Source: Ignavibacteria bacterium (lineage in GTDB: Bacteria > Bacteroidota > Ignavibacteria > Kapaibacteriales > UBA2268). Taken from it: 48,925 nt of DNA. The stretch is taken from contig JAOAEE010000056.1 in the NCBI GenBank assembly GCA_026416955.1, forward strand, positions 1-48,925, given 5' to 3'. Under the pieces are notes generated by a model. The model was given only the letters and a program-made list of their open reading frames with translations, did not search any database and was not told the origin of the DNA. The translations under genes and the position numbers were made by a program. Of the stretch, positions 217 through 45,123 are shown in pieces (within the stretch, counting starts at the first letter, position 1; every line of letters starts with the position of its first letter).

Positions 217-1650
217 ATGAAAAATTCCATAGTATTTATCATTCTAATTTTTGTAAATATTGGTTATATTATTTCGCGTGACTTTCCCAAGCAAAAAATT
301 TGCTTCTCTGTTGGTGCTAATTACAACTTTTTTATTGGGTCGTTCAACAAACTACCTAATGTTCCAAATTGCTGTCCTGAATTCAGTTTTGGAAAAGGTC
401 TTGGTTTTAACTCAAATCTTAGCTATAGGCACATAGTACAAGATAAAATATGGGTTGGCGGTAAAATAGGATTAATTACATTAGACGCCGAGTTTAGAAA
501 AGAAGAACCTACTTTTATTATTACTCCGCAAGGTCTTGAAGAAGGCAGTTTTGAACATTTACTCCGTGCAAATCTTTCGAACGTTTTTATTCAGCCTTTC
601 GTCGAAATAAATTTATACAAAAATTTATTCTTTTCTTTTGGATTAGATTTTGGTTATCTATTCAAAAATTCTTTCTATCAAAAAGAAACAATTATTAAAC
701 CATATGGGTATGGAACTTTTTTAGATTCTCTTGGTAATGATTCTGGTAAAAGATACAGAAACGAATACAATGGGACAATTCCCAATTTAATTAAAAATCA
801 AAATTTCGTAACTATCGGATTATCTTACGACTTACCTCTTAATAAACATACTACTTTGTTATTACGACCAGATGTTTTTTTTAGATACCCATTTACAAAC
901 TTAGTCCGAGATATAAAGTGGAGGGTTTCAAGTTTAGGAGGTAATCTTTCATTAGTCTTTGCTCCAAAAGCAAAAGCACCAAAGAAGAGATTAAAAGAGC
1001 AAAGAATAGAAAGAGATACAATTAAAATAATTAGCAAAAACATATCCCAAGAGACTATCCAGATTGGAAAAGAAAATTTTGAGTATTCCGAAATTGAATA
1101 TGATGATTATATTATTGAATTAACAAAAATTAAAATCATTGATACTTTGTTAATCCCAAAAACATATATCCTGGAAGGCAATGTAGTTGCTGTTGGTCTA
1201 GATGAAAATGGTAACGAAATTCCAAATCCAAGATTTCTGATTGAAGAAATCGTTTCAAATAAATTAGTTCCATTACTTCCTTACATTTTTTTCGAGGAAG
1301 GGTCAAGCGAAATCCCAAAAAAATATAAATTATTCGATTCTTTCGAAAGTGCAAAAAACTTTAACATTAGCGAATTATTTTACGAAGGAACAATTGACAT
1401 TTACCATCATATTCTAAATATTATTGGTCAAAGGATGAGAATTTATACAGATGCTGATTTAACCCTTGTTGGATGCAACTCAGACTTCGGCATCGAAAGA
1501 ACTAATATAAACCTTTCGAAACAAAGAGCAATTGCAATAAAAGAATATCTAATTAATGTTTGGGGAATAGCTCCACATAGAATAAAAATTGAAGCAAGAA
1601 ACCTTCCGGAAAAACCATCCATTCCGACCACAGAACCAGAAAAATGTTGA
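217..1650 (+). CDS. OmpA-family outer membrane protein, 5' part (frameshifted)
   Basis: The protein has an N-terminal hydrophobic signal (about residues 1-20). A region of short amphipathic strands follows to about residue 255, looking like an outer-membrane beta-barrel. Next come a linker and a first OmpA-like peptidoglycan-binding domain from about residue 355 (LPYIFFEEGSSEIP, later NLSKQRAIAIKEYL). The frame stops at TGA 1648-1650 in the middle of the conserved ending of that domain. The missing ending (VEENRRVEL) continues in the next frame from 1646. Removing one A from the A5 run at 1640-1644 joins both parts into one protein of about 715 residues. I read this as one gene broken by a frameshift, sequencing error or slippage site. 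Likely role: anchoring outer membrane to peptidoglycan. No Shine-Dalgarno is visible before ATG 217. Confidence 0.75.
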   Translation: MKNSIVFIILIFVNIGYIISRDFPKQKICFSVGANYNFFIGSFNKLPNVPNCCPEFSFGKGLGFNSNLSYRHIVQDKIWVGGKIGLITLDAEFRKEEPTFIITPQGLEEGSFEHLLRANLSNVFIQPFVEINLYKNLFFSFGLDFGYLFKNSFYQKETIIKPYGYGTFLDSLGNDSGKRYRNEYNGTIPNLIKNQNFVTIGLSYDLPLNKHTTLLLRPDVFFRYPFTNLVRDIKWRVSSLGGNLSLVFAPKAKAPKKRLKEQRIERDTIKIISKNISQETIQIGKENFEYSEIEYDDYIIELTKIKIIDTLLIPKTYILEGNVVAVGLDENGNEIPNPRFLIEEIVSNKLVPLLPYIFFEEGSSEIPKKYKLFDSFESAKNFNISELFYEGTIDIYHHILNIIGQRMRIYTDADLTLVGCNSDFGIERTNINLSKQRAIAIKEYLINVWGIAPHRIKIEARNLPEKPSIPTTEPEKC

Positions 1651-2368
1651 AGAAAACAGAAGAGTAGAGCTGAAAACTACACACAAAAAATTGCTTGAAT
1701 GGATCTATATTGAAAAAATAGATAGAACTGCAACCCCGCCAATAATCCGATTTAAACCATTTGTTGATAGTGAAGCAGGGCTAAAAAATTGGAATTTAGT
1801 TGCCTATCAAAATTCAGAACCAAATCTTAGATTTGAGGTTTCTGGGGAAAAGCAACCTCCTAAAAATATTGATTGGAAGTTGGAGGAATTCCAAAAAATA
1901 ATTCCAAGAAACCCAGAACCTATAATTTTTTCTTTGTCTATATTAGATGAAGTAGGAACTAAGCTCGATATTAAAGAAAAAACCTTACCAATCGAAGTTA
2001 AAACAATTGTTCAAAAAAGGAAAGAGAAAGTCGAGGACTTCGAATTGGAAAAGTTTAGCCTAATTTTATTCGATTTTGATAAAGCAACAATCGAAGGAAT
2101 GAACAAACAAATTGTTTCATTAATCAACTCGAAAGTCAAACCTAATTCACTGGTAAGTATTGTCGGATACACTGATAAAACTGGCGAGAGTGAATATAAC
2201 CGTAAATTATCGGAGCAAAGAGCTTATTCCGTAAAATCTTTACTTAAAGGAGTTAAAGCGACAGCCTATGGCGTTGGTGAAACTATTCTGCTATATGATA
2301 ACAATTTACCCGAAGGAAGGTTTTATTGCCGAACAGTAGAAGTCGTAATAAAAAATCCAATTAAATAA
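1646..2368 (+). CDS. OmpA-family outer membrane protein, 3' part (frameshifted)
   Basis: This is the continuation of the preceding OmpA-family gene in the +1 frame. It starts with VEENRRVELK, the normal end of an OmpA-like domain, so the true content begins near 1646; an ATG at 1589 lies in the same frame but upstream of the join. A beta-rich spacer follows. A second OmpA-like domain then runs from about 2040 to 2360, with FDFDKATI, the strand SIVGYTDKTGES and the helix RKLSEQRAYSVKSLL. Two OmpA-like domains in one polypeptide is unusual for OmpA proper. I recall it from barrel proteins of Ignavibacteria-type genomes, without having checked. The gene ends 47 bases from the convergent gamma subunit gene; no GC-rich hairpin is visible in that gap. 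Confidence 0.7.
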   Translation, partial: VEENRRVELKTTHKKLLEWIYIEKIDRTATPPIIRFKPFVDSEAGLKNWNLVAYQNSEPNLRFEVSGEKQPPKNIDWKLEEFQKIIPRNPEPIIFSLSILDEVGTKLDIKEKTLPIEVKTIVQKRKEKVEDFELEKFSLILFDFDKATIEGMNKQIVSLINSKVKPNSLVSIVGYTDKTGESEYNRKLSEQRAYSVKSLLKGVKATAYGVGETILLYDNNLPEGRFYCRTVEVVIKNPIK

Positions 2369-2415: not shown

Positions 2416-3411
2416 TTACAAAGCCTCATAGGAATTCATTAATTCGGTTAGTTCCTTAGTAATTTTTGCTTGCCGAATTTTATTCAATTTCCTTCTTAGG
2501 TTCTTTATTTGGATTTCGGCTTCATCGCTAGTTTTTTGCAAAATTTGTTTTCTTTCAAAATTCTCAGAAAGAACACTTTGTATTAATGAATAAACGATTA
2601 AATACAATGTTACAATTTTAGAGAATTCAAAAGCCTTTTTGATGAAGAAATTAATTTTATCAAAAGTAATTTTCTCATCTGGATCCAATAAATAGTCGTT
2701 AACAGAAACTTCTAACCCAAATTCTTTGATAGTATCCCTTGGTAATATTGGTTCAAGAATAGGATGTTTTTCATTAACCAATAACAGATTCTCATAACAT
2801 CTTGTATTTAATGTCAGAGATCCAGTAAAATCCAGTCTATTAAGTTCATTATAAATGACGTCAATTAAAACAAAGGGATAATTAGCAAAATACGTTTCCA
2901 ATAAATTCGAAAAGAAACCATCCAAGCAACCTAAAAGATTTGAAATCTCATTCAAAGAAGGTTCCTTCTTCAAGATAAATGGTTTAAAATCAACATTTAA
3001 ATCAATTTGTTCCTTAAAAATTTTTCTTCTTCCGAAAATAATTTTTTTTGAATAGTGATTGTTTTTCTCCTTCTCACCAAGTTTTTCAAAAATTTGGTAA
3101 TCAAATTTTCCACAAAAAGGCAACTCTGAGGTTAAAACGAGGACAATTCTTGGAGAATTCAATACCTCGACATTATTTCCGAGATTCAATTTTACACGAA
3201 GATTTATTAAGTTCTGAGTATAAAATAACAATTTCAATGGTTCAATTTGTTTTAAATCTATTTGAAAACTCTCGAAAAATATTGTAAGAATTTGCTTATT
3301 TAGAATGGAAATCTTATTGTAAACATTGAGCGAATAAGGGAAAAGGATATCTGCGATATCCTTAATAGTCTCTAACTCAGCAATCTCAGATTTAATTAGT
3401 TTTTGGCTCAT
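2416..3411 (-). CDS. F1-like ATPase gamma subunit (divergent)
   Basis: This 331-residue protein is the last gene of the F1-like ATPase operon; its start overlaps the alpha gene by 20 bases. The F1 gamma family is recognised mainly from the C-terminus: a long helix with LYLIVYSLIQSVLSENFERK and then KIRQAKITKELTELMNSYEA, matching the usual N-x-x-R-Q-A-x-I-T-x-E-L-x-E-I ending. In the middle, LTSELPFCGKFDY stands where gamma normally has a (S/T)DRGLCGGFN-like strand. The N-terminal helix is poorly conserved and the protein is slightly longer than a normal gamma (about 285-310). In F1, gamma is the rotating shaft inside the alpha3beta3 ring. Here its foot would have to contact an unknown rotor, since no c subunit is encoded nearby. 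Confidence 0.8.
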   Translation of the reverse strand: MSQKLIKSEIAELETIKDIADILFPYSLNVYNKISILNKQILTIFFESFQIDLKQIEPLKLLFYTQNLINLRVKLNLGNNVEVLNSPRIVLVLTSELPFCGKFDYQIFEKLGEKEKNNHYSKKIIFGRRKIFKEQIDLNVDFKPFILKKEPSLNEISNLLGCLDGFFSNLLETYFANYPFVLIDVIYNELNRLDFTGSLTLNTRCYENLLLVNEKHPILEPILPRDTIKEFGLEVSVNDYLLDPDEKITFDKINFFIKKAFEFSKIVTLYLIVYSLIQSVLSENFERKQILQKTSDEAEIQIKNLRRKLNKIRQAKITKELTELMNSYEAL

Positions 3412-4942
3412 ACTTTTGCAATTTTTTTAACCCTTCTATCAATTCTTGCTCTGGACAAATTTCAAATTCACTCTGTTTGAGGAATTCAAGTAACTTTTTA
3501 CCATATTCGATAAACTTTATTTCTGATTCATTTAATTGTATGCCATACTTAATAAATTTTTCTTTTTCGCGAAAAGTTGCCAAATCGGACTTCAAGTTCC
3601 GGGAAACTTTTTTTAATTCATTTGATTGAACAGCAGAGCCAATTCTGGAAACAGATAAGCCAATATTTATTGCAGGCCAAAAATTAGAGTTACACAATTC
3701 CGGGTCTAAATAGATTTGACCATCAGTAATTGAGATAATATTGGTAGGAATATATGCGCTAAAATCACTATCTTTCGTTTGTAAAATAGGAATAGCAGTT
3801 ATTGATGCTGTTCTCCTTTGGGAAGGAAGTGTCATTTGGTTTGGAGCAGGTTCGTCCAAGTAAATATTAGATGCTCTTTCAAGCAATCTTGAATGTAAAT
3901 AAAAAATATCGCCCGGATAGGCTTCTCGCCCCGGTGGTCTTTTCAGCAAAAGTGAAAGATGTCGGTAAGAATTTGCGTGGGTTGTCAAATCGTCGTAAAC
4001 AATTATTACATCTTTCCCTTTATCACGGAAATACTCAGCCATAGTTGTAGCTGCAAATGGGGTAATATAAACTAAAGGAGCAGGGTCGTTCGCTTTGCTA
4101 ACAACGATAATAGATTTATCAAGGCACCCAAATTTATTTTTCAACAAATAATAAATATTTTTTATTTCTGAAATCTTCTTTCCTATAGCAACATAAATAA
4201 AAACCCGATTTTTAATATCCTTTTGACTATAAAAGAAAGTCAAGGCTAAAGAAGTTTTACCAGTTCCACGGTCACCCAAAATTAGCATTCGTTGCCCTAA
4301 CCCAATTGGCATAATGGCATCAATTATTTTCACACCCGTAAGTAATTGCTTTACAACTGGAGCTCGTTTGACAATTGGGGGTGCTAGCTGTTCAATTGGT
4401 CTTAATTCAATATTGAAATTACCTTCATCAAAAAATTTCATTTCTTCTTTTGCATCCTCAATGTTAAGAATCCTACCAAAAGGATCAACCACTTTTCCCA
4501 GAAAATAATCACCCACAGCGGTAAATAAAGATTGATGCGTGCTAAATTTTATCTCGTAGGAATTTTGCTTTGAGAATCCAAAAATGAATTTCTCGTAATT
4601 TTTTTCCTCAAATTTGATCGTAACTTTATCCCCTTCTTTAACAAACCTTTCTTCACCAAAAATAATACATTTAATAACTTTTCGGTCTATATCCATTATT
4701 TGCCCAAATACATAAGGATTGTTCGGGTCTTCCTCAGTCGACCTAATCGATGATGTAGGCAAAAAGACCATTTGCCCAACTCGACCCTTTTCACAACCTT
4801 CGACAATTGCTATTCCATCAGCAAAAGATACTACTTTGCCTTCATATTCTGGTTGTAATTTTTCCTCCTCTATTTCTAATAATTTTAGTTCTTTGTTTAT
4901 TTCTTCAATTAATTGAAATACATCAAGTTCTTCGTTACCCAT
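3392..4942 (-). CDS. F1-like ATPase alpha subunit (divergent)
   Basis: A 516-residue alpha-type subunit. The Walker A loop is GDRGTGKT at residues 223-230, where ordinary alpha has GDRQTGKT, so the nucleotide-contacting Gln is Gly226. The Walker B region is VIIVYDDL (Asp317/318), followed by the conserved RPPGREAYPGD and SRLLERA. The arginine finger is kept in SVSRIGSA (Arg433), so it could complete the catalytic sites of beta. About 30 residues are inserted at 112-139, between the N-terminal barrel and LGKVVDPFG, compared with standard alpha. The start is supported by a GGGAG purine stretch just upstream of ATG 4942. The delta-like gene ends one base before the start. The order delta-alpha-gamma matches normal F-type operons. 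Function: non-catalytic ring subunit of a soluble rotary ATPase. Confidence 0.93.
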   Translation of the reverse strand: MGNEELDVFQLIEEINKELKLLEIEEEKLQPEYEGKVVSFADGIAIVEGCEKGRVGQMVFLPTSSIRSTEEDPNNPYVFGQIMDIDRKVIKCIIFGEERFVKEGDKVTIKFEEKNYEKFIFGFSKQNSYEIKFSTHQSLFTAVGDYFLGKVVDPFGRILNIEDAKEEMKFFDEGNFNIELRPIEQLAPPIVKRAPVVKQLLTGVKIIDAIMPIGLGQRMLILGDRGTGKTSLALTFFYSQKDIKNRVFIYVAIGKKISEIKNIYYLLKNKFGCLDKSIIVVSKANDPAPLVYITPFAATTMAEYFRDKGKDVIIVYDDLTTHANSYRHLSLLLKRPPGREAYPGDIFYLHSRLLERASNIYLDEPAPNQMTLPSQRRTASITAIPILQTKDSDFSAYIPTNIISITDGQIYLDPELCNSNFWPAINIGLSVSRIGSAVQSNELKKVSRNLKSDLATFREKEKFIKYGIQLNESEIKFIEYGKKLLEFLKQSEFEICPEQELIEGLKKLQKYEPKTN

Positions 4943-4943
4943 T

Positions 4944-5534
4944 TCACTCCCATTTATTATTGATTAACTTTGATTTCAAAACTAAATCAAACAAAAGATT
5001 ATTAAGCTCTTCGATACTGTAACTTTTATCTAGTTGAATCCTTGAAATTTCATCATTCGTCATTAAAAATGAATCCAGAAGTTCATTTTTTTTCCAAGGC
5101 TTTTCGTTATCACATTTTCGATAAATGTTAACTTTAAATGCAACAAATCTTTCACCAAACTTATCTATAATAATCTTTTTAATAAATCTTTTTCTCTCGC
5201 TAGTCAATTGAAGGTCATTACCAATATAAACATTTAGGAAACAAAATTTTTCTAATATTTTCTGGGACAAATTATTAAGACAACTAATATCAAAATTGTC
5301 AACGACTATTTCTACAATTTTCTTCATCAAAAATGTTCGTAAACAATTAGAAATGATTTCTTTTGCTTGTTTTCTTTTATCCTTATCATTGGAAAAATTA
5401 AGATTTTCAAAGTTAATATAGTTCAGAATAACTAAGTCCTTGTAAACTGATTCAAAGGAGAAATCCGTACCAAAACCTTTATTATTAATGTAATTTATTA
5501 ACTTTTTTTCTATCACATCCAATTTTTTATCCAT
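4944..5534 (-). CDS. Possible F1 delta-like (stator) subunit
   Basis: A 196-residue soluble, mainly helical protein directly before alpha, the place of atpH (delta) in F-type operons; usual delta length is about 180. The only sequence hint is LTSERKRFIKKIIIDKFG at about residues 109-126. It resembles the LT-x-E-x-K helix that opens the C-terminal domain of delta. The following strand AFKVNIYRKCD would correspond to the delta sheet, but the signature ending of delta is missing. If the call is right, it caps the alpha3beta3 ring and ties it to the peripheral stalk. The assignment rests more on position than on similarity; it could be an unrelated adaptor that replaced delta. Confidence 0.4.
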   Translation of the reverse strand: MDKKLDVIEKKLINYINNKGFGTDFSFESVYKDLVILNYINFENLNFSNDKDKRKQAKEIISNCLRTFLMKKIVEIVVDNFDISCLNNLSQKILEKFCFLNVYIGNDLQLTSERKRFIKKIIIDKFGERFVAFKVNIYRKCDNEKPWKKNELLDSFLMTNDEISRIQLDKSYSIEELNNLLFDLVLKSKLINNKWE

Positions 5535-6281
5535 TTATGGGCTTCTTTTGTTGCTAAAAATTTGCTTCTTATAATTGATAATATCAACAGAATAATATAA
5601 TTGCAAGACTTCGTTGGCTTCTTGTTTATTTTGGATTTGCTTAAACTTTTGTATATTAAGTTCATATCCTTTCTTAGTTTTATCGAAGTATTTATAAAAC
5701 AAATTGTTATAATGATAAAACCCATATACTTTGAAAAGAAAAATCAAAATCAGTACTACTATATTAAAGGTATTGAAAAATAAGTTCAGAAACTTTCTAT
5801 TTTTAGTTCCTGGACTTGAAATTTTACTCGGTTGAATTTTCGTTTCAATGTCTTCGAAAAAATGGGCACTATCGCTTTCGGGCTTCCCTTTTTGTGGAAT
5901 TTGATTTTTTAAGTCATCTAATTTCCTATCTATCTCTTCCAAAAAGGAAATAACATTAAAATTTGCTTCGCTACTTTGTTTCTCGAAAATCCTTGGATTT
6001 CGCGCATAAGCATATGTAAATTTGTAAGATTTTGGTAAATCAACAGCTACAGCTCTAGAACCTTGTACATCTAAAGAATTCTCTTGTGAAGTGGGCTCTT
6101 CTTTTCTCGAAGTGAAAGCAAATCCAAAATAAAATTTGGAGTTTAAAAACAATATTAGATTAATTAAGAATCCAAGGATTAAAAGATAAATACCATAATT
6201 AAGAAAAAATGAATTACCTATTCTCAAATAAATCAATATTTCATAAGGCAGAATAGAATATAAAATTGAAATAATATCCAT
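5535..6281 (-). CDS. Two-TM membrane protein of the F1-like ATPase operon
   Basis: This 248-residue protein has no family I recognise. One strong transmembrane segment lies at about residues 28-48 (YGIYLLILGFLINLILFL). A shorter hydrophobic stretch precedes it (ISILYSILPYEILIYL), and a second strong segment lies at about 168-187 (FNIVVLILIFLFKVYGF). The 120-residue loop between them contains a predicted helix (SFLEEIDRKLDDLKNQI). A charged tail of about 60 residues follows the second segment. It sits where subunit b would be, between epsilon-like and delta-like genes. However, subunit b has one TM helix and a long coiled coil, subunit c is a short hairpin with a buried carboxylate, and subunit a has five or more TMs; none fits. 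It is the best candidate for a new membrane anchor or track for the motor. Confidence 0.6.
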   Translation of the reverse strand: MDIISILYSILPYEILIYLRIGNSFFLNYGIYLLILGFLINLILFLNSKFYFGFAFTSRKEEPTSQENSLDVQGSRAVAVDLPKSYKFTYAYARNPRIFEKQSSEANFNVISFLEEIDRKLDDLKNQIPQKGKPESDSAHFFEDIETKIQPSKISSPGTKNRKFLNLFFNTFNIVVLILIFLFKVYGFYHYNNLFYKYFDKTKKGYELNIQKFKQIQNKQEANEVLQLYYSVDIINYKKQIFSNKRSP

Positions 6282-6283
6282 TA

Positions 6284-6709
6284 TTAATCAAAATTGTTCC
6301 TAATAATTAAATTATCAACTAAATGAAGATCGTTGACCAAAATAGTGATTTTCTTTAATCCAATTTCAAAATCCTCTTGAGCTTTTGTATTCGGAGAGTC
6401 ATCGAAAAAAATTAAAGCTTCCCCATTAATTTCCCAACTAAACCCTTTATCTGGAGAAAAAACAATTGTTTCAACATTTGGAACATAGGCTATCATTTTT
6501 TTTGAATTTGGAACGATAGTAGCCCTATTTTTTTCATTTTCATTAATTGTTAATATATTATCCAACTTTAATTCTTTCAATATACTATCAAAATCTTGAA
6601 CAACTGAATCAATAGGTTTTAAACTTTCAAATGAAATCATTTCAACATCTTCTAATTGGTTATTTAAATGTTGATTAACCAAATAACAAATCTCTACGAT
6701 GCAAACCAT
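6284..6709 (-). CDS. Small epsilon-like protein of the F1-like ATPase operon
   Basis: This 141-residue soluble protein follows beta by 6 bases and precedes the membrane protein by 2 bases. Its place directly after beta is that of atpC (epsilon) in F-type operons, and its length is near the usual 85-140. The second half has short strands (MIAYVPNVETIVFSP, INGEALIFFDD) and ends in LKKITILVNDLHLVDN. That ending loosely resembles the V-T-I-L-A-D strand of the epsilon barrel. No convincing motif is present in the first half. An alternative start is the Met at residue 24. I regard epsilon as a positional guess with weak sequence support. Confidence 0.4.
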   Translation of the reverse strand: MVCIVEICYLVNQHLNNQLEDVEMISFESLKPIDSVVQDFDSILKELKLDNILTINENEKNRATIVPNSKKMIAYVPNVETIVFSPDKGFSWEINGEALIFFDDSPNTKAQEDFEIGLKKITILVNDLHLVDNLIIRNNFD

Positions 6710-6715
6710 ATTGAC

Positions 6716-8371
6716 TTAAATTTTTGATAAATAACCAAGTATCTTATCACTTTGATATACACTATCATCAATAACCTTAATAGTAGTAATGTTATAAAAT
6801 CTCGACTCATCGATTTTCGTACATTCTTCATCGCATAAAACAAATAGGCAACCTACAAGAGTATCCCAAATTGGAACAAAACATTCTTCTATTAAAGCTT
6901 CGCTCGAATCGGTTTCTAAATTAGCTTCAGTTTTTTTCAATCGTTCTATTGTGTAAAATGGTTGAGTTAAAAATCTTAAAAGCCTAATAGAACGAAAATG
7001 TATATCCTTTTGCTCTTCGGTCAATGAATCAATTCCCAATAGATTTATGTTTTTCTCTAGATTTTTATTTATAGTCAAATATTCCTTTGCCTTTGCAAGA
7101 ATTCTTGGGTGGGATTCTATCAATTTAACAAATATCTCTTCTTCCAACTCAATCGTTGAATGATAATTTTCGTACAACTGTCTTGCAAAATTCTCATCAA
7201 TTTTACTAATAAAATTCGATTTGGAGTCTAATACATCCACTGCGGGGTAGAGACTTTTTTCTGCAATATCCCTTTTAAGAACAATCTGTGCGTCCAAATG
7301 GGAAAAAAGTGTGGCTGGTGCTGGGTCAGTTAAATCGTCGGCGGGAACGTAAACTGCTTGAATAGAGGTAATAAAGCCATCTTCGGTCGAGCAGATTCTT
7401 TCCTCTAAATCACCAATTTCCATTTCCATTGTAGGTTGGTATCCAACACTAGAAGGTATTCTTCCAAGCAAAGAAGAAAGTTCCGAACCAGCTTGTACAA
7501 ACCGAAAGATATTATCAATAAACATTACAACATTACAACCTTTGTCCCTCCAATATTCAGCTATTGTAACTGCCGAGTGTGGAGTTCTAAAACGAACTCC
7601 CGGTGGCTCATCCATCTGCCCAAAAACTAAAACTACATTATCCAAAAGGTTAACTTGACTATTCTTCTCATTCAATAATATATTGTGAAGTTCTTGTAGT
7701 TCCTTCCACAACTCTGCTCCTTCTCGGATTCTTTCCCCAACACCAGCAAAAATTATTTTTGTTTCTTTACCCTTTGATTGTATAAAACTTTTTTTAATAA
7801 AATTATAAATTAACTCTTTCAAAAGAACAGTTTTTCCAACCCCAGCACCACCAAAAAAACCCACTTTTCCACCTAAGGGGATAGGACAAGCAAAATCTAT
7901 TACTTTTATACCTGTTAAAAGCATATCTTTGCCAACAGAAACCTTTTGAAAATGAGGTGGATCCTTAACAATATTTATTCTTTCAATGTTAACCAAATTC
8001 TTATCTTTTAAATAATATTCACTCTCCGAAACTACTTTTCCTTCAAGGTCATCTATCGTTTCACCAAGGGTGTTAAAGACTCTTCCGGTAATATTGACAG
8101 GAACGCTAAGTTGTTTACCAAAATACCTCACTTTAAAGTTTTTCCCAAGTAGAAAAGTGCTACCCAAAGCAATTGCCTTTACTATATTGTTCCCACAATG
8201 GGCTAAAACCTCGAGCTTTAGATTCCCCTCATAGTTAGGGTCGTGAACTTCTACAATGTCGTAAATTTTAGGAAGTTCCTCGAAAGATTGCACATCAAAG
8301 TCAATTTCGCAAACCGGACCATTAACGCTAATTATTCTCCCCTCGACATATTCAAACTTATCATCTAACAT
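6716..8371 (-). CDS. F1-like ATPase beta subunit (catalytic, divergent)
   Basis: The protein has 551 residues, longer than the usual 460-480. All catalytic elements are present: Walker A GGAGVGKT (174-181), the GER loop with catalytic Glu213 ([11 protein letters not shown]), Walker B FIDNIFRF (Asp286), and [13 protein letters not shown] with adenine-binding Tyr311. It therefore looks like an active ATPase subunit, not a decayed one. The lever segment that contacts gamma, normally DELSEED, reads DSLTEEQ (448-454), just before [13 protein letters not shown]. The extra length is in a small insertion after the GER loop (about 225-242) and a C-terminal extension after residue 475. The order beta then epsilon-like is as in Bacteroidota, but here both are joined to the alpha-gamma half in one operon. 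A 92-base gap separates it from the acidic leader gene. Confidence 0.93.
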
Positions 8372-8463: not shown

Positions 8464-9210
8464 TTATTTATCATCTTCATCCTCATCTTCTTCTTCATCA
8501 TCTTCTTCAAAGGGATCCCCAAACATATCCTCATCATTATCATCAGATAAATCATCTTCCAAGTCATCAGACTGATTATAAAACATACTCGACAATGATT
8601 CGTACTTTTCTTCAAATCTATCTACAAATCTTTCATCATATATTTCATCACTTTCGTCAAATGGGATTAGGTTTTTTCCCTTTTTGGCAAGTATACCTTT
8701 ATAATAATTAAAAATATTTTGCACCGTATCATATTCCAAATCTTCATCGGTGTTTAATTCCCATTCAACAAAATTATCAATGTTCATTATTATGTCGTAG
8801 ATAACACCATTATCAAAACTGTCGTAATATCCACCGTAGTTTAATACTTGATTGAACTCATTAATGATGTCCACAAAATCATCCTCAGTAAGCGTGTAGC
8901 CGTAAATTTGAAATTGGCCACTTTCTTCCAAATTTGCAAATATTTCTTCTTCTAAAATTTTTCCTATTTCGGAGTTAACAACATCTTCCTCAACCTTTGA
9001 AAATTTCCTATCAACCCAAATCCATAATTGATTTTCGGTTTTTACTCTTTTCAAAAATTTTTCGTCACAAGAAAAAGCTTCTTCAAAATACCAATTATAT
9101 TGCCCTTCGAGGTATCCTATGTAATAGGAAACCAATGCTTTGGCTTTCTCGGATTGTAGTTTACTGCTTACGCAGGGTATTTGTTTTGAAAACCATACAA
9201 AAAAATCCAT
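8464..9210 (-). CDS. Acidic-tailed hypothetical protein, first gene of the F1-like ATPase operon
   Basis: A 248-residue soluble protein with no family I recognise. Residues 1-190 look folded and are rich in aromatic and acidic residues (SYYIGYLEGQYNWYFEEAF; LNYGGYYDSFDNGVIYDI). The last 35 or so residues are almost only Asp and Glu, from DDLEDDLSDD to EEEDEDEDD, and must be a disordered polyanion. There is no signal peptide or TM segment. It is transcribed first, ahead of beta, with no other gene between. It may be a regulator, chaperone or adaptor for the ATPase, but this is only guilt by association. A 73-residue frame on the same strand at 8394-8615 mirrors the low-complexity tail and is not considered a gene. 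Confidence 0.7.
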   Translation of the reverse strand: MDFFVWFSKQIPCVSSKLQSEKAKALVSYYIGYLEGQYNWYFEEAFSCDEKFLKRVKTENQLWIWVDRKFSKVEEDVVNSEIGKILEEEIFANLEESGQFQIYGYTLTEDDFVDIINEFNQVLNYGGYYDSFDNGVIYDIIMNIDNFVEWELNTDEDLEYDTVQNIFNYYKGILAKKGKNLIPFDESDEIYDERFVDRFEEKYESLSSMFYNQSDDLEDDLSDDNDEDMFGDPFEEDDEEEDEDEDDK

Positions 9211-9601: not shown

Positions 9602-11917
9602 TTATATTTCCTTTGCCAATACTATTATTCTATCTTCTGCTCCAAGTTTAAAATATTCTGTTTTCTTTGGGTTAAGTATAAATTTTGCTTGTGGTGTCTT
9701 GTAATTCTGGATTATCCCTATTGCAGTTTCATCCTTTCGCATCGCTGCCTCGACAATCGTGGCAAATGATACCTTTTCCCCAATCCGAACGAAACATTCT
9801 ACATCGCGCACATATATCTCCGAACCCTCGCTTACAAATAAATGGTCGAAAACTTTTATCAATTCCTTCTGCTCCGACAATTGCGCCAACACTGGTCCGA
9901 CTATATTCGAACCAATTATGTAATCTGTTATAATTCCGTTGCTTGCAATTTTAGAATTATTGATATCCAAAAATTCAGCGACTATTGAAAACTTATATTC
10001 TTTCCTAGATTCAAGGCGGTTTAATATAGAAATTAGATATAATGTGTTTGTATCAATTTCGTTAACGGTATCAAATCTGGTATCGTTAGCCAAAATAATC
10101 ACTGTTTCAATATCTTCTACTACGTCTTCTAACTTTTTTTCTTTTCCATATTCAATATGAAGTTTAAGAATGCTATTATTTTTAAATTTTTCATTAATCG
10201 CTTCTCTAATTTCCTTTTTTTCCATTTTATCGAAAAGTAATATGCGAACTAAATTTCCGTTGGAATTTGTAGAAGTAAAATAAGAGTTCAAATACCATAA
10301 GATTTCAGGAATTTTTGGACTGTAACCAAGAATTAGCACATTGTGCCGTTTTCGATAATCACTTAGCATCGCAGAAGAAATTTGTTCGTAATCGATAGAT
10401 ACTTTTCTTCTAATATCTCTACATTCTTTTAAGCTCTTATCATTTTCTGCAAGCAACACCAACAAATCTTCCTTCCTCAGAACAGTGGTTTTGCTTGGAT
10501 TGAGTTCACACTTTTCATTTCTAATTATTCCAACAAGTGTGGCATTGTTGTAATGGTAAATTGCATCAGCAAATTGTACACCAACCAAATTAGGAGGCAA
10601 TTTTGTTATGTATAATTCATTCCCTTTAAAACCAAGAATTTCATAATACGTATTCGAAATATTTGGGTTCAAAACGGCTTGTGCAATTAATCGAACAATA
10701 AACTGTTCTGGGTTAAAGAAAACTACTCTATTATTTCTATCAATATCTTGAATTTTCTTTTTTACCTCGTCACTATATATTTCGGCTACAATATGAAATC
10801 TCGAAGAATCAATTTGTTGACTTTTACCAAGCAATGCAAGCACAGATTTGAGAACCGAATAATCTGCATTTCTATCGTTACCTTCGTTTAAAATAACGAT
10901 TGACTTAGCTTCCCAAGCATTAACCAACTCCAAATCCTTTACATTAGAGATAGAACCACTTACTGCAATAATTTTAGTAGTCGAGAAACCAGAAAATCTA
11001 TGCTCCAATTCATAATCCATATCGGATTTATCCTTGTTTGACAATATGACAATTGTAGCTCTGTCTCTTGTAAGATTTGCTTCTATAAGTTCATCCACAA
11101 TTGAGTAAATTTTGTCGTTCCAACCGAGAATTAGAGAATGATGTTTATTACTCACTTTTGTTTTACCACGCTTTTCGATTTCACGAACTGCTTCCAAATC
11201 GGAAGTAATCAGTCCCACAAAAAAGTTTAAAAGAATTAATGCGGCAAAGAACTGGAAACTAATGAAAATAAGAAAAAATAGAATCTCTGGAAAACCACTT
11301 TGAATTAATTGCTTTATCCCGGGGTCTGAATAAAGTTCTGCCCAAGTGTCGAACATAATAAAATATAAGGTCTCGAGCGAAGTAAAAAGCGTCCCAAACT
11401 TTTCTGGGGAATACTTCCCAAACAAATCAGTCGTAACTACACCATAAATATAAAGTAAAATACACAGCAGTATAAGAACATTGACAATAGAAGGAATTAT
11501 CCTGAACAAAATGTCGAGAATAGTCTTAAATTTCTTCAATTTTTCGAATATTCTTAATAGACGCAAGATTCTTGCAAGGCGCAACACGATTACGAATTCT
11601 GAACTACCACCGAAATAAACTAATGCCATTAAACTCAAGAAAATTACAATAAAATCGAAAATATGCCAAGGGTCGAAGAAGTATCGCCAAATTCGATAAC
11701 CGTGCTCCAACATATAGATAAGCATTTCAAGAATAAAAATTCCGGTAACTATCCAGTCGAACCAAATGAAGAAGATATGAAATCTCTCATATAACTCCCT
11801 GCAAGTGGATATACCAGCTAAAACTCCACCTAAAATGATAACTACTGCAATAGATATTCTGAAACAATTATTGTTGGAAATTTTTTGAGCAAATTCTTGG
11901 ACTTTTGAAATATCCAT
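9602..11917 (-). CDS. Voltage-gated (NaV-like) channel fused to CASTOR/POLLUX-type cytoplasmic domain
   Basis: A 771-residue inner-membrane channel subunit. Residues 20-240 form a six-TM voltage-gated channel. S4 has arginines at every third place (Arg113, 116, 119, 122 in VLRLARILRLLRIF). The pore loop is LETLYFIMFDTWAEL (181-195), resembling the TLESW filter of bacterial NaV channels. S6 ends NFFVGLITSDLEA. From about 257, HSLILGWNDKIYSIVDELIE and the following strands match the regulatory region of plant CASTOR/POLLUX and bacterial relatives (Castor_Poll_mid, RCK-like). A second Rossmann-like unit begins near 525 (HNVLILGYSPKIPEILWYLN). CASTOR-type proteins normally carry a K+-channel-like pore without this voltage sensor. 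Ion selectivity cannot be read with confidence. The gene is monocistronic or paired with the upstream secreted-protein gene. Confidence 0.85.
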   Translation of the reverse strand: MDISKVQEFAQKISNNNCFRISIAVVIILGGVLAGISTCRELYERFHIFFIWFDWIVTGIFILEMLIYMLEHGYRIWRYFFDPWHIFDFIVIFLSLMALVYFGGSSEFVIVLRLARILRLLRIFEKLKKFKTILDILFRIIPSIVNVLILLCILLYIYGVVTTDLFGKYSPEKFGTLFTSLETLYFIMFDTWAELYSDPGIKQLIQSGFPEILFFLIFISFQFFAALILLNFFVGLITSDLEAVREIEKRGKTKVSNKHHSLILGWNDKIYSIVDELIEANLTRDRATIVILSNKDKSDMDYELEHRFSGFSTTKIIAVSGSISNVKDLELVNAWEAKSIVILNEGNDRNADYSVLKSVLALLGKSQQIDSSRFHIVAEIYSDEVKKKIQDIDRNNRVVFFNPEQFIVRLIAQAVLNPNISNTYYEILGFKGNELYITKLPPNLVGVQFADAIYHYNNATLVGIIRNEKCELNPSKTTVLRKEDLLVLLAENDKSLKECRDIRRKVSIDYEQISSAMLSDYRKRHNVLILGYSPKIPEILWYLNSYFTSTNSNGNLVRILLFDKMEKKEIREAINEKFKNNSILKLHIEYGKEKKLEDVVEDIETVIILANDTRFDTVNEIDTNTLYLISILNRLESRKEYKFSIVAEFLDINNSKIASNGIITDYIIGSNIVGPVLAQLSEQKELIKVFDHLFVSEGSEIYVRDVECFVRIGEKVSFATIVEAAMRKDETAIGIIQNYKTPQAKFILNPKKTEYFKLGAEDRIIVLAKEI

Positions 11918-41952: not shown

Positions 41953-44900
41953 ATGTTGGAAAATTTTCTTAGTTCTTATCTCAAAGAAATTTTTTTTATT
42001 TATAATAACCCAGATACAAGAGAAGAAAGTTTCTATCCCGTACTTGAAAAATTGTTGAAATCCCTTTTGGAGTATTTCAACAAGTCCAACGCTTTTGTAA
42101 CATTACTTCCTAAAAAGACAGAAGGAGGTAATCCCGATTTTAGAATTTGGGATGGAAATTGTCATATTATTGGGTACATCGAGGCAAAGCACCCTTCTGT
42201 CCATTTAGACGCAATCGAAAATACGGAACAATTGCTTCGATATCGAAATACCTTTCCAAATTTGATTCTAACCAATTTTATTGAATTCTGGCTTTACCGA
42301 CAAGGAAAGTTAATATTGAAAGTTGGAATTACCGAACCTTTCGTTTTAGAAAAACTTAAAATTCAACCTTTTTTAAAGAATGTTAAAGAATTTTCGAATT
42401 TGTTCGAAGTTTTTGTTTCATTTTCCTTACCAAAAGTATTTACCTCGTCCGAATTAGCAAAGGATTTAGCCAAAAGAACAAACATTTTAAAAGAAGTTGT
42501 TTTCGAAGAATTAACAACTAATCCTACGAATTCAGAAATTTCAAGTTTTTACGAGGCATTTAAGAAATTTCTCATTAGTGGGCTTTCACCAAATGAATTT
42601 GCTGATTTATATTCGCAAACAGTTACTTACGGTCTTTTCATTGCAAGAACACGCTCAAACGGCAATTTTACTCGGAGAGAGGCATTCTATAAAATACCCC
42701 AAACAATTGGTATTCTAAGCCATTTGTTTCGTTTTATTTCTCTTGGTGATTTACCAAAACAAATGGAGTGGATTCTCGACGATATCGTAAATGTCCTCGC
42801 AGTAACAGATGTCAAAAGCTTGCTGAAAGAATATTTAATATCTAAGGAAGGCGAAGACCCAATTATCCATTTTTACGAAACTTTTCTTTCTGAATACGAC
42901 CCAAGCACAAGAGAAAAGAGAGGAGTTTATTACACACCCGAACCAGTAGTATCGTTTATCGTTCGTTCTTTAGACAACTTGTTAAGAAAAGAATTCGACT
43001 GCCGAGATGGCTTTTCAACAAGTAATGTCACACTCTTAGACCCTGCGGCTGGAACATTAACTTTCCTTGCATACGCTACAAAACTTGCTGTGGAAAACTA
43101 TATTTCAAGTTATGGGGAGGGTGGTAACCTTCGCTTTATTAAAGAGCATATTTTAGAAAACTTTTATGCTTTCGAATTAATGATGGCACCCTATGCAGTT
43201 GGACACTTAAAAATTTCCCTACTCTTGGAAGAACTTGGTTATTATATGCAAGACAAAGAAAGATTTAAACTTTACTTAACAAACACATTAGATTTAACAG
43301 AATTACCCGAAACAACTTTGCCCGGGATAAAGGTTTTATCCGAAGAGTCACACTCAGCAAGCAAAATAAAAAATGAAGTTCCAATCCTTGTAATATTAGG
43401 AAATCCACCATACTCTGGGCATTCTGCAAATACAAAACCAGAAATGATAAACTTTTTAAAAGTAAACTTAGATGGCTTACAAAGTTATTATGAAGTGGAC
43501 GGAAAACCACTTGGAGAAAAGAACCCAAAATGGCTACAAGACGACTATGTAAAATTTATTAGATTTGCACAATGGAAAATCCAAAAAGCAGGAAGAGGCT
43601 TAGTTGGATTCATTACTAATCACAGTTATTTAGATAATCCCACATTTCGAGGTATGCGACAATCATTAATGAAAACCTTCAATGAAATTTACATCTTAAA
43701 CCTTCACGGAAACTCACTAAAACAGGAAAAGGCACCCAATAATTTAAAAGATGAAAATGTATTCGATATCAAACAAGGTGTTGCAATTACAATTTTTGTT
43801 AAAAGACCAATAAAAAAACGAAAAACAAAGGTATATTATTACGACTTGTGGGGAAATCGTTCGAAAAAGTATGAATTTCTTAAAAGCAACAATATTTCTA
43901 CTATCGACTGGATAGAATTGCACCCAAGTTCAAATAATTATTTTTTCATTCCAACTTCAATAGAAAACAAACAAAAATATCAGAAATTCATTAGCATAAC
44001 AGAAATCTTTAAAGAAAAAAATGTCGGCGTTGTAACTGCTCGGGATAAATTTACAATTCGCTGGACTAAAGATGAAGTTTGGACCACTGTACTAAATTTT
44101 ACGAAACTCGACATCGAAATGGCACGCAAATCATACGATTTGGGCAAAGACGCAAGAGATTGGAAAGTTGAACTTGCACAACAAGATTTACTTGAAAGCG
44201 GTCTTACTAAAGAGAACATAGTACCAATTTTATATCGACCTTTTGACATTAGATATACTTACTACACTGGGAAGTCCCGCGGATTTCATTGCATGCCACG
44301 AAAAGAAATAATGCAACATATTTTAAAAATCCAGGACAACTTAGCATTAATTACTATTCGTAGGTCACGAAGTTCTGAGATTTGGAATTTCTCTTTTGTC
44401 TCGGAAACAATAATTTCTGGGTCGACTGCAATAAGTTCTCTTGACATTAATTATATCTTTCCTCTCTACCTTTATAAAGAAACATCTACGAAAAATACTA
44501 AAATCTCTGGCAAACTAAGTTCTTGGCTTTTGTTCGAACCTAAACAAGATTATTTTAACAAAATACCTAATCTTTCCGAAAATTTACTACTGTTACTCTC
44601 AAGGAATTATAACTATCAACCATTACCTGAAGATATATTTTATTTCATTTATGCAATCTTGTATTCTGATAAGTATAGACAAAATTACAACGAGAACTTA
44701 AAGTTGGACTTCCCAAAGATTCCTTTCCCCAAAAATAAAGATTTATTTTCTAAGTTGGTTAAATTAGGTAAAAGGCTCGTTAGTGTTCATTTGTTAAAAT
44801 CTAAGGAAATTTATCCCTCAATTGCAAAACTTCAAGGCGAAGGAAATAACTTAATCGAAAAACTCGAATACAAGTCCAATAAATTATTTATTAACAAACA

Positions 44901-45123
44901 ATCATATTTTGAAGGTATTAACCAGCAAATATGGAACTACCGATTTGGGGGATATAAAATATTGGAAAAATGGCTGAACGACCGGAAAGATAGATACCTA
45001 ACTTTGGACGAAATCAAAACTTTCTGCCAAATAGTTACAGCAATTCAAAAAACTATGGAAATTCAATGGGAAATAGACAAGATATACGATAATATAGAAG
45101 ATGAACTAATTGACATTATCTGA
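41953..45123 (+). CDS. Type IIG-like restriction endonuclease-methyltransferase
   Basis: A 1056-residue single-chain restriction-modification enzyme. A PD-(D/E)xK nuclease domain is at the N-terminus (Pro61-Asp62 in GGNPDFRIWDG and Glu77-x-Lys79 in GYIEAKHP). A helical linker follows. The gamma-class N6-adenine methyltransferase domain begins at KRGVYYTPEPVVSFIVRSL, with SAM motif DPAAGTLTFLAYA (about 358-370) and catalytic motif LGNPPYSGH (about 479-487). The remaining 450 residues should hold the target-recognition domain. There is no helicase domain, so it is not the LlaGI/type ISP layout. It would modify one strand pattern and cut unmodified invading DNA. It starts 19 bases after tRNA-Gln and ends 12 bases from the convergent dapB. 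No separate methylase, specificity or regulator gene accompanies it. Confidence 0.88.
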   Translation: MLENFLSSYLKEIFFIYNNPDTREESFYPVLEKLLKSLLEYFNKSNAFVTLLPKKTEGGNPDFRIWDGNCHIIGYIEAKHPSVHLDAIENTEQLLRYRNTFPNLILTNFIEFWLYRQGKLILKVGITEPFVLEKLKIQPFLKNVKEFSNLFEVFVSFSLPKVFTSSELAKDLAKRTNILKEVVFEELTTNPTNSEISSFYEAFKKFLISGLSPNEFADLYSQTVTYGLFIARTRSNGNFTRREAFYKIPQTIGILSHLFRFISLGDLPKQMEWILDDIVNVLAVTDVKSLLKEYLISKEGEDPIIHFYETFLSEYDPSTREKRGVYYTPEPVVSFIVRSLDNLLRKEFDCRDGFSTSNVTLLDPAAGTLTFLAYATKLAVENYISSYGEGGNLRFIKEHILENFYAFELMMAPYAVGHLKISLLLEELGYYMQDKERFKLYLTNTLDLTELPETTLPGIKVLSEESHSASKIKNEVPILVILGNPPYSGHSANTKPEMINFLKVNLDGLQSYYEVDGKPLGEKNPKWLQDDYVKFIRFAQWKIQKAGRGLVGFITNHSYLDNPTFRGMRQSLMKTFNEIYILNLHGNSLKQEKAPNNLKDENVFDIKQGVAITIFVKRPIKKRKTKVYYYDLWGNRSKKYEFLKSNNISTIDWIELHPSSNNYFFIPTSIENKQKYQKFISITEIFKEKNVGVVTARDKFTIRWTKDEVWTTVLNFTKLDIEMARKSYDLGKDARDWKVELAQQDLLESGLTKENIVPILYRPFDIRYTYYTGKSRGFHCMPRKEIMQHILKIQDNLALITIRRSRSSEIWNFSFVSETIISGSTAISSLDINYIFPLYLYKETSTKNTKISGKLSSWLLFEPKQDYFNKIPNLSENLLLLLSRNYNYQPLPEDIFYFIYAILYSDKYRQNYNENLKLDFPKIPFPKNKDLFSKLVKLGKRLVSVHLLKSKEIYPSIAKLQGEGNNLIEKLEYKSNKLFINKQSYFEGINQQIWNYRFGGYKILEKWLNDRKDRYLTLDEIKTFCQIVTAIQKTMEIQWEIDKIYDNIEDELIDII

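Follow-up and report, generated by a model that had tools for sequence, protein, structure and literature searches.

The gene at positions 9602-11917 on the minus strand of the window (the whole stretch of DNA analyzed, 48,925 nucleotides) encodes a 771-residue protein, P0001, in which residues 4-246 form a six-helix channel of NavAb type, its voltage sensor complete, and residues 258-771 form a full CASTOR/DMI1-type tandem-RCK gating ring. The fusion is a real, rare natural chimera with a BK-like layout and a CaV/NaV-family pore, and it is apparently undescribed so far.

Domain architecture of P0001

The gene is a single intact frame from ATG to stop with no internal stop codon. Pfam analysis of P0001 gave matches above the cut-offs to Ion_trans (residues 17-246, 8e-31), Slo-like_RCK (residues 259-348, 2e-8), and Castor_Poll_mid (residues 405-498, 2e-22), and an NCBIfam search returned no family above cut-off. 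Comparison with PDB sequences using phmmer matched residues ~10-279 to NavMs, NaChBac, and NavAb at 1e-24 or better and residues 250-768 to the LjCASTOR gating ring crystal structure with E = 8.6e-44. The initial annotation had placed a six-TM voltage-sensor channel and a CASTOR/POLLUX cytoplasmic region in one chain, and the single frame and both searches bear this out. All domains are encoded on the minus strand. The S1-S4 voltage-sensor domain (residues 17-126) lies at 11540-11869, and S5, the pore helix, the filter, and S6 (residues 141-240) lie at 11198-11497. RCK1 with Castor_Poll_mid (residues 258-498) is at 10424-11146 and aligns to LjCASTOR from residue 320. RCK2 (residues 523-771) is at 9605-10351, where a second stretch of the phmmer match to the CASTOR ring covers residues 642-768 and the LjCASTOR alignment extends to residue 853.

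AlphaFold2 was used with 36 sequences to model the P0001 monomer (mean pLDDT 80, pTM 0.58). The channel part is mostly above 85 pLDDT and the ring mostly 70-90, with weak stretches at residues 421-434 and 499-522. Structural alignment of the model gave Z 16.8 and rmsd 4.1 over 221 for residues 4-244 against NavAb, and for residues 258-771 against LjCASTOR 320-853 it gave Z 29.2 and rmsd 8.2 over 418. Most of the chain aligns with Slo1/BK (Z 19.4, rmsd 16 over 474). The large multi-domain rmsd means that domain placement in this monomer model is uncertain and not readable as a gating state. An ordinary TrkA-type RCK pair, which the initial annotation had named as one finding that would count against it, was rejected because TrkA_C falls below cut-off (20 vs 27 bits), TrkA_N has no match, and the first strands contain no GxGxxG; Castor_Poll_mid is far above its cut-off, and the model matches LjCASTOR with a Z of 29.

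Distribution and origin of the fusion

The architecture, whose spread the initial annotation had suggested gauging by a domain search, is rare, with five full fusions and one broken copy in one bacterial order. The full fusion occurs in 5 of the 123 genomes of this order: the window genome, G450 (locus L046), G021 (L047), G452 (L131), and G028 (L048). In a sixth genome, G451, a frameshift close to the end of a contig interrupts the fusion copy (L049). Among genomes of the window's genus, four others have the ring-only channel and no fusion. Sampling 395 genomes from the phylum gave only three fusions, and no fusion turned up in 1,171 sampled genomes of four other phyla; the ring was present in 74 of these 1,171 (E up to 1e-80), with no match reaching into the voltage sensor. 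A pattern scan of ~85,000 species genomes gave no further fusion among the matches listed. Open-access papers were searched for a NaV or other voltage-sensor channel fused to an RCK or CASTOR-type domain, and no prior description was found in them. The possibility raised in the initial annotation that the fusion is an already described family thus finds no backing in the open-access papers searched.

The pore and the ring are joined by a tether at 11120-11215 on the minus strand, which was compared in length with its homologs. The span from the S6 glycine (G235) to W266, the Trp that closes the first RCK1 strand, is 32 residues in P0001, L046, and L047. Almost every ring-only relative, the paralog in the window genome among them, has the same 32-residue spacing, and the spacing in L048 is 30 residues. 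Judged by these lengths, the fusion joint preserves the register of pore and ring, as expected of a coupled channel.

The window genome is a draft of 78 contigs and the L049 copy is frameshifted near a contig end, as might be seen with an assembly chimera, a decayed gene, or read-through of two adjoining genes. We consider this explanation extremely improbable. The same architecture and conserved junction in other genomes indicate that the fusion is neither chance nor an assembly artefact. The same junction in the same register in independent genomes, the intact frame, and the substitution rates rule out an assembly chimera or pseudogene, and the base composition is that of the neighboring genes. 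Comparison of L046 with L049 over residues 1-213 gave dN = 0.024 and dS = 0.32 (dN/dS ~0.08), which indicates purifying selection on the channel half in that lineage.

The ring tree (98/99) and the channel tree (100/99) each group P0001, L046, and L047 as a clade, to which a larger ring tree gives weak support (80/39). L048 falls outside this clade in the ring and channel trees, but AU tests do not reject a single origin (p 0.154 and 0.244); these two trees are limited by long branches and do not separate one fusion event from two. An old transfer or loss may lie behind the patchy distribution. A recent foreign origin was rejected on the P0001 GC3 of 0.30 compared with 0.26-0.31 in neighboring genes. 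Viral contigs contained no relative, which argues against a phage origin, and a plasmid origin was discarded because plasmids carry only ring-only relatives covering ≤70% of the query.

The P0001 gene is flanked by an F1-like cluster and a secreted-protein gene, and L046 is flanked by uvrA- and uvrB-like genes, so these two have no shared neighborhood that would point to a conserved operon partner. Promoter and terminator scans gave counts at chance level. The F1-like cluster (2416-8371, minus strand) is a second, divergent F1-ATPase-like set by Pfam, with beta-like (6716-8371), alpha-like (3392-4942), and gamma (2416-3411) genes. Three small unassigned proteins are encoded between the subunit genes. 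One of them (5535-6281) has what look like TM helices at each end, and a search of 53 other genomes of the family gave no convincing homolog of it. The cluster shows no Fo a or c subunit. Other alpha/beta-family genes, apparently an ordinary F1 set, lie elsewhere in the window genome (contigs C52 and C16). The cluster is reminiscent of the F1-like ATPases of gliding mycoplasmas. Between the cluster and the channel gene, 8464-9210 (minus strand) encodes a 248-residue protein that has no Pfam match and ends in a strongly acidic tail. An OmpA-like protein at 217-2368 (plus strand) appears to be divided between two overlapping frames (217-1650 and 1589-2368), which suggests a frameshift or sequencing error near 1640. 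At 41953-45123 (plus strand), a 1056-residue protein resembles a type IIG restriction-methylation enzyme (NPPY motif) as judged by eye only.

Voltage sensor and selectivity filter

The four regularly spaced S4 arginines of the initial annotation are confirmed as R113, R116, R119, and R122 (11552-11581, minus strand). Residues F61, E64, D88, R113, R116, and R119 are invariant in 36 of 36 aligned channels, and R122 is Arg or Lys. The four S4 arginines, F61 and E64 in S2, and D88 in S3 make up the charge-transfer set of NavAb. P0001 has these sequence features of the single-domain bacterial NaV/CaV superfamily: a six-TM Ion_trans domain, an S4 Arg at every third residue, and S2/S3 counter-charges. 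At the sequence level, the P0001 voltage sensor is complete.

The selectivity filter spans M188-E194 (11336-11356, minus strand) and reads M1 F2 D3 T4 W5 A6 E7 in the numbering of the CavMr paper (PMC7041947); the FDTWAEL motif is residues 189-195. The pore-helix Thr (T183) is 9 residues from the filter Trp (W192) in P0001, L046, and L047, compared with 10 in the other 33 of 36 aligned channels, the fusion L048 included; these channels were drawn from a scan whose patterns contained part of the fusion filter, which biases filter frequencies and leaves the spacing result less exposed. L131 shares the short form by inspection (SLFFVAFEGW). The corresponding filters are SFEGWSG in L046, SFEGWSW in L047, AFEGWSW in L131, and TFDDWSE in L048. 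The fusion-clade filter is thus one residue shorter on its upstream side and lacks Thr1, and the nearest relatives of P0001 read xFEGW. The initial annotation had called the filter close to bacterial NaV, a description that fails on the spacing, the missing Thr1, and the xFEGW neighbors. The name BacNav in the strict sense is not applied to P0001 because its MFDTWAE filter with a spacing of 9 departs from the canonical bacterial TLESW/TxExW with a 10-residue spacing. A K+ filter of the TVGYG type is absent from P0001. Filter position 7 is a bulky Trp in L131 and L047 and mostly Asp, Glu, or Asn in the other aligned channels.

Gly4 is the main determinant of Ca2+ selectivity in CavMr, and the xFEGW-type Gly4 motif is found in CavMr and in CaV repeats I/III (PMC7041947). 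NavPp has the filter TLEDWTD and is Na+-permeable and Ca2+-blocked (PMC7041947). These two behaviors mean that neither selectivity reading is safely transferable to the fusion clade. We judge that the cation pore of P0001 is more likely to be Ca2+-permeable or weakly selective than Na+-selective, and because the shortened filter has no characterized counterpart the permeant ion is a guess.

Ring ligand sites, gating, and known systems

CASTOR is a Ca2+-selective channel whose RCK ring carries the sites through which cytosolic Ca2+ activates it, and the ring additionally binds Na+/K+ and Mg2+ (PMC6697748). The initial annotation had described the CASTOR pore as K+-channel-like, which is wrong for its selectivity since the pore lacks TVGYG and is Ca2+-selective (PMC6697748). 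CASTOR site residues were placed on the PDB chain sequence, and 17 of 17 checked residues agree with the paper numbering. L047 and L048 retain all tested CASTOR Ca2+ ligands (A342, S345, D442, E493, E552, D553, and D554), and Ca2+ control of these two channels is therefore likely. The P0001 ring retains the equivalents of A342, E493, E552, and D554 and has S345 replaced by Thr, D442 by Ser, and D553 by Asn, which leaves only E493 and D554 among the S345, D442, E493, D553, and D554 equivalents. Ca2+ control of P0001 is uncertain, and with the D442, D553, and S345 equivalents lost its ring may not respond to Ca2+. The L046 ring has S345 replaced by Glu, E552 by Gln, and D554 by Arg.

The reading we favor, and hold to be probable, is that P0001 is a homotetrameric NaV/CaV-family cation channel with S6 tethered to a CASTOR-type ring, integrates voltage with a cytoplasmic signal, and passes Ca2+ and/or Na+ rather than K+. 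The domains, the full set of voltage-sensor residues, the length of the linker, the ring fold, and the recurrence in five genomes are seen in the sequences and the model, and we infer the tetramer, the dual gating, the permeant ion, and the ligand; the anatomy most naturally predicts a channel controlled by voltage together with a cytoplasmic ligand. Four subunits would form one pore with four voltage sensors around it and eight RCK domains below, the S6 helices being tethered directly to the CASTOR/DMI1-type gating ring. Depolarization would move S4 and favor opening, and a cytoplasmic ligand would move the ring and pull on S6 through the short linker, so that both movements would converge on one S6 gate as in BK. 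The ligand would be Ca2+ in relatives with intact sites; in the window lineage, the ligand or the affinity for it may have changed. The fusion would have originated in a single bacterial order through the joining, at S6, of a NaV/CaV-family gene with the ring of a CASTOR-type 2TM channel. A more specific proposal, which we put forward only tentatively, is a prokaryotic counterpart of BK, fused independently of Slo, with an inward Ca2+-permeable pore, a previously unseen shorter filter, and joint opening by depolarization and Ca2+. If the pore admits Ca2+ and Ca2+ activates the ring, the channel would amplify its own signal through positive feedback on Ca2+ entry.

An unlikely alternative to the favored reading is a Na+-selective voltage-gated channel whose ring replaces the usual coiled coil and acts mainly as a tail for tetramerization or modulation. 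It would fit the sequence and fold of the channel half, which are those of the bacterial NaV family, the loss of several CASTOR Ca2+-ligand residues in P0001, and the Na+ permeability and Ca2+ block that NavPp shows despite its acidic TLEDWTD filter (PMC7041947). However, the filter is one residue shorter without Thr1, its neighbors (xFEGW) have the Gly4 on which the Ca2+ selectivity of CavMr depends, and a linker of exactly the length found in ring-only channels argues for mechanical coupling. More doubtful still is a voltage-gated channel whose ring has a ligand different from Ca2+, for example a metabolite, a nucleotide, Na+/K+, or Mg2+. Altered Ca2+-site residues in both P0001 and L046 point this way, RCK domains elsewhere bind nucleotides and various ions, and the CASTOR ring itself binds Na+/K+ and Mg2+ (PMC6697748), but L047 and L048 keep the full tested Ca2+-ligand set. 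The first strands of P0001 also argue against a nucleotide, reading LILGWND in RCK1 and LILGYSP in RCK2 as in CASTOR, with no GxGxxG nucleotide motif.

The plant nuclear Ca2+ channels CASTOR/POLLUX/DMI1 (LjCASTOR, 6o6j and 6o7c; MtDMI1, 7vm8) share with P0001 a tandem-RCK ring with Castor_Poll_mid and some, but not all, of the Ca2+-site residues. Their membrane part differs: CASTOR has four predicted TM segments and the filter ADSGNHA (PMC6697748), whereas P0001 has a voltage sensor and a NaV/CaV-family pore. With residues 4-246 NavAb-like, P0001 is a ring homolog of CASTOR/POLLUX/DMI1 and not a full family member. In bacteria, CASTOR-type rings, studied mostly in plant symbiosis, here sit on an altogether different pore. 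Bacterial ring-only 2TM CASTOR-type channels, such as the window-genome paralog L127 (G000:C68:52941-54707), have a homologous ring and an equal S6-to-RCK1 linker length. Unlike P0001, L127 has two TM helices, no voltage sensor, and another filter (LDGGV region), with 29% identity over the ring. As a compact system encoded by one gene, P0001 would allow voltage sensing, gating by the ring, and ion selectivity to be separated and swapped, with ring-only relatives in the same bacteria as ready controls.

The bacterial NaV/CaV channels NavAb, NaChBac, NavMs, CavMr, and NavPp share the six-TM fold, complete voltage sensor, and filter Trp with P0001, but all end within ~300 residues, whereas P0001 continues into a gating ring and has a filter one residue shorter. 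Slo/BK channels (Slo1 and Slo2.2) have the same layout as P0001, with an S1-S4 sensor, pore, short S6 linker, and tandem-RCK ring in one chain. P0001 differs from them in lacking the K+ filter TVGYG and in having a NaV/CaV-type channel half and a CASTOR-type ring, so the BK-like layout is likely convergent. The BK layout has apparently been built a second time from other parts, a NaV/CaV-family channel joined in register to a CASTOR ring.
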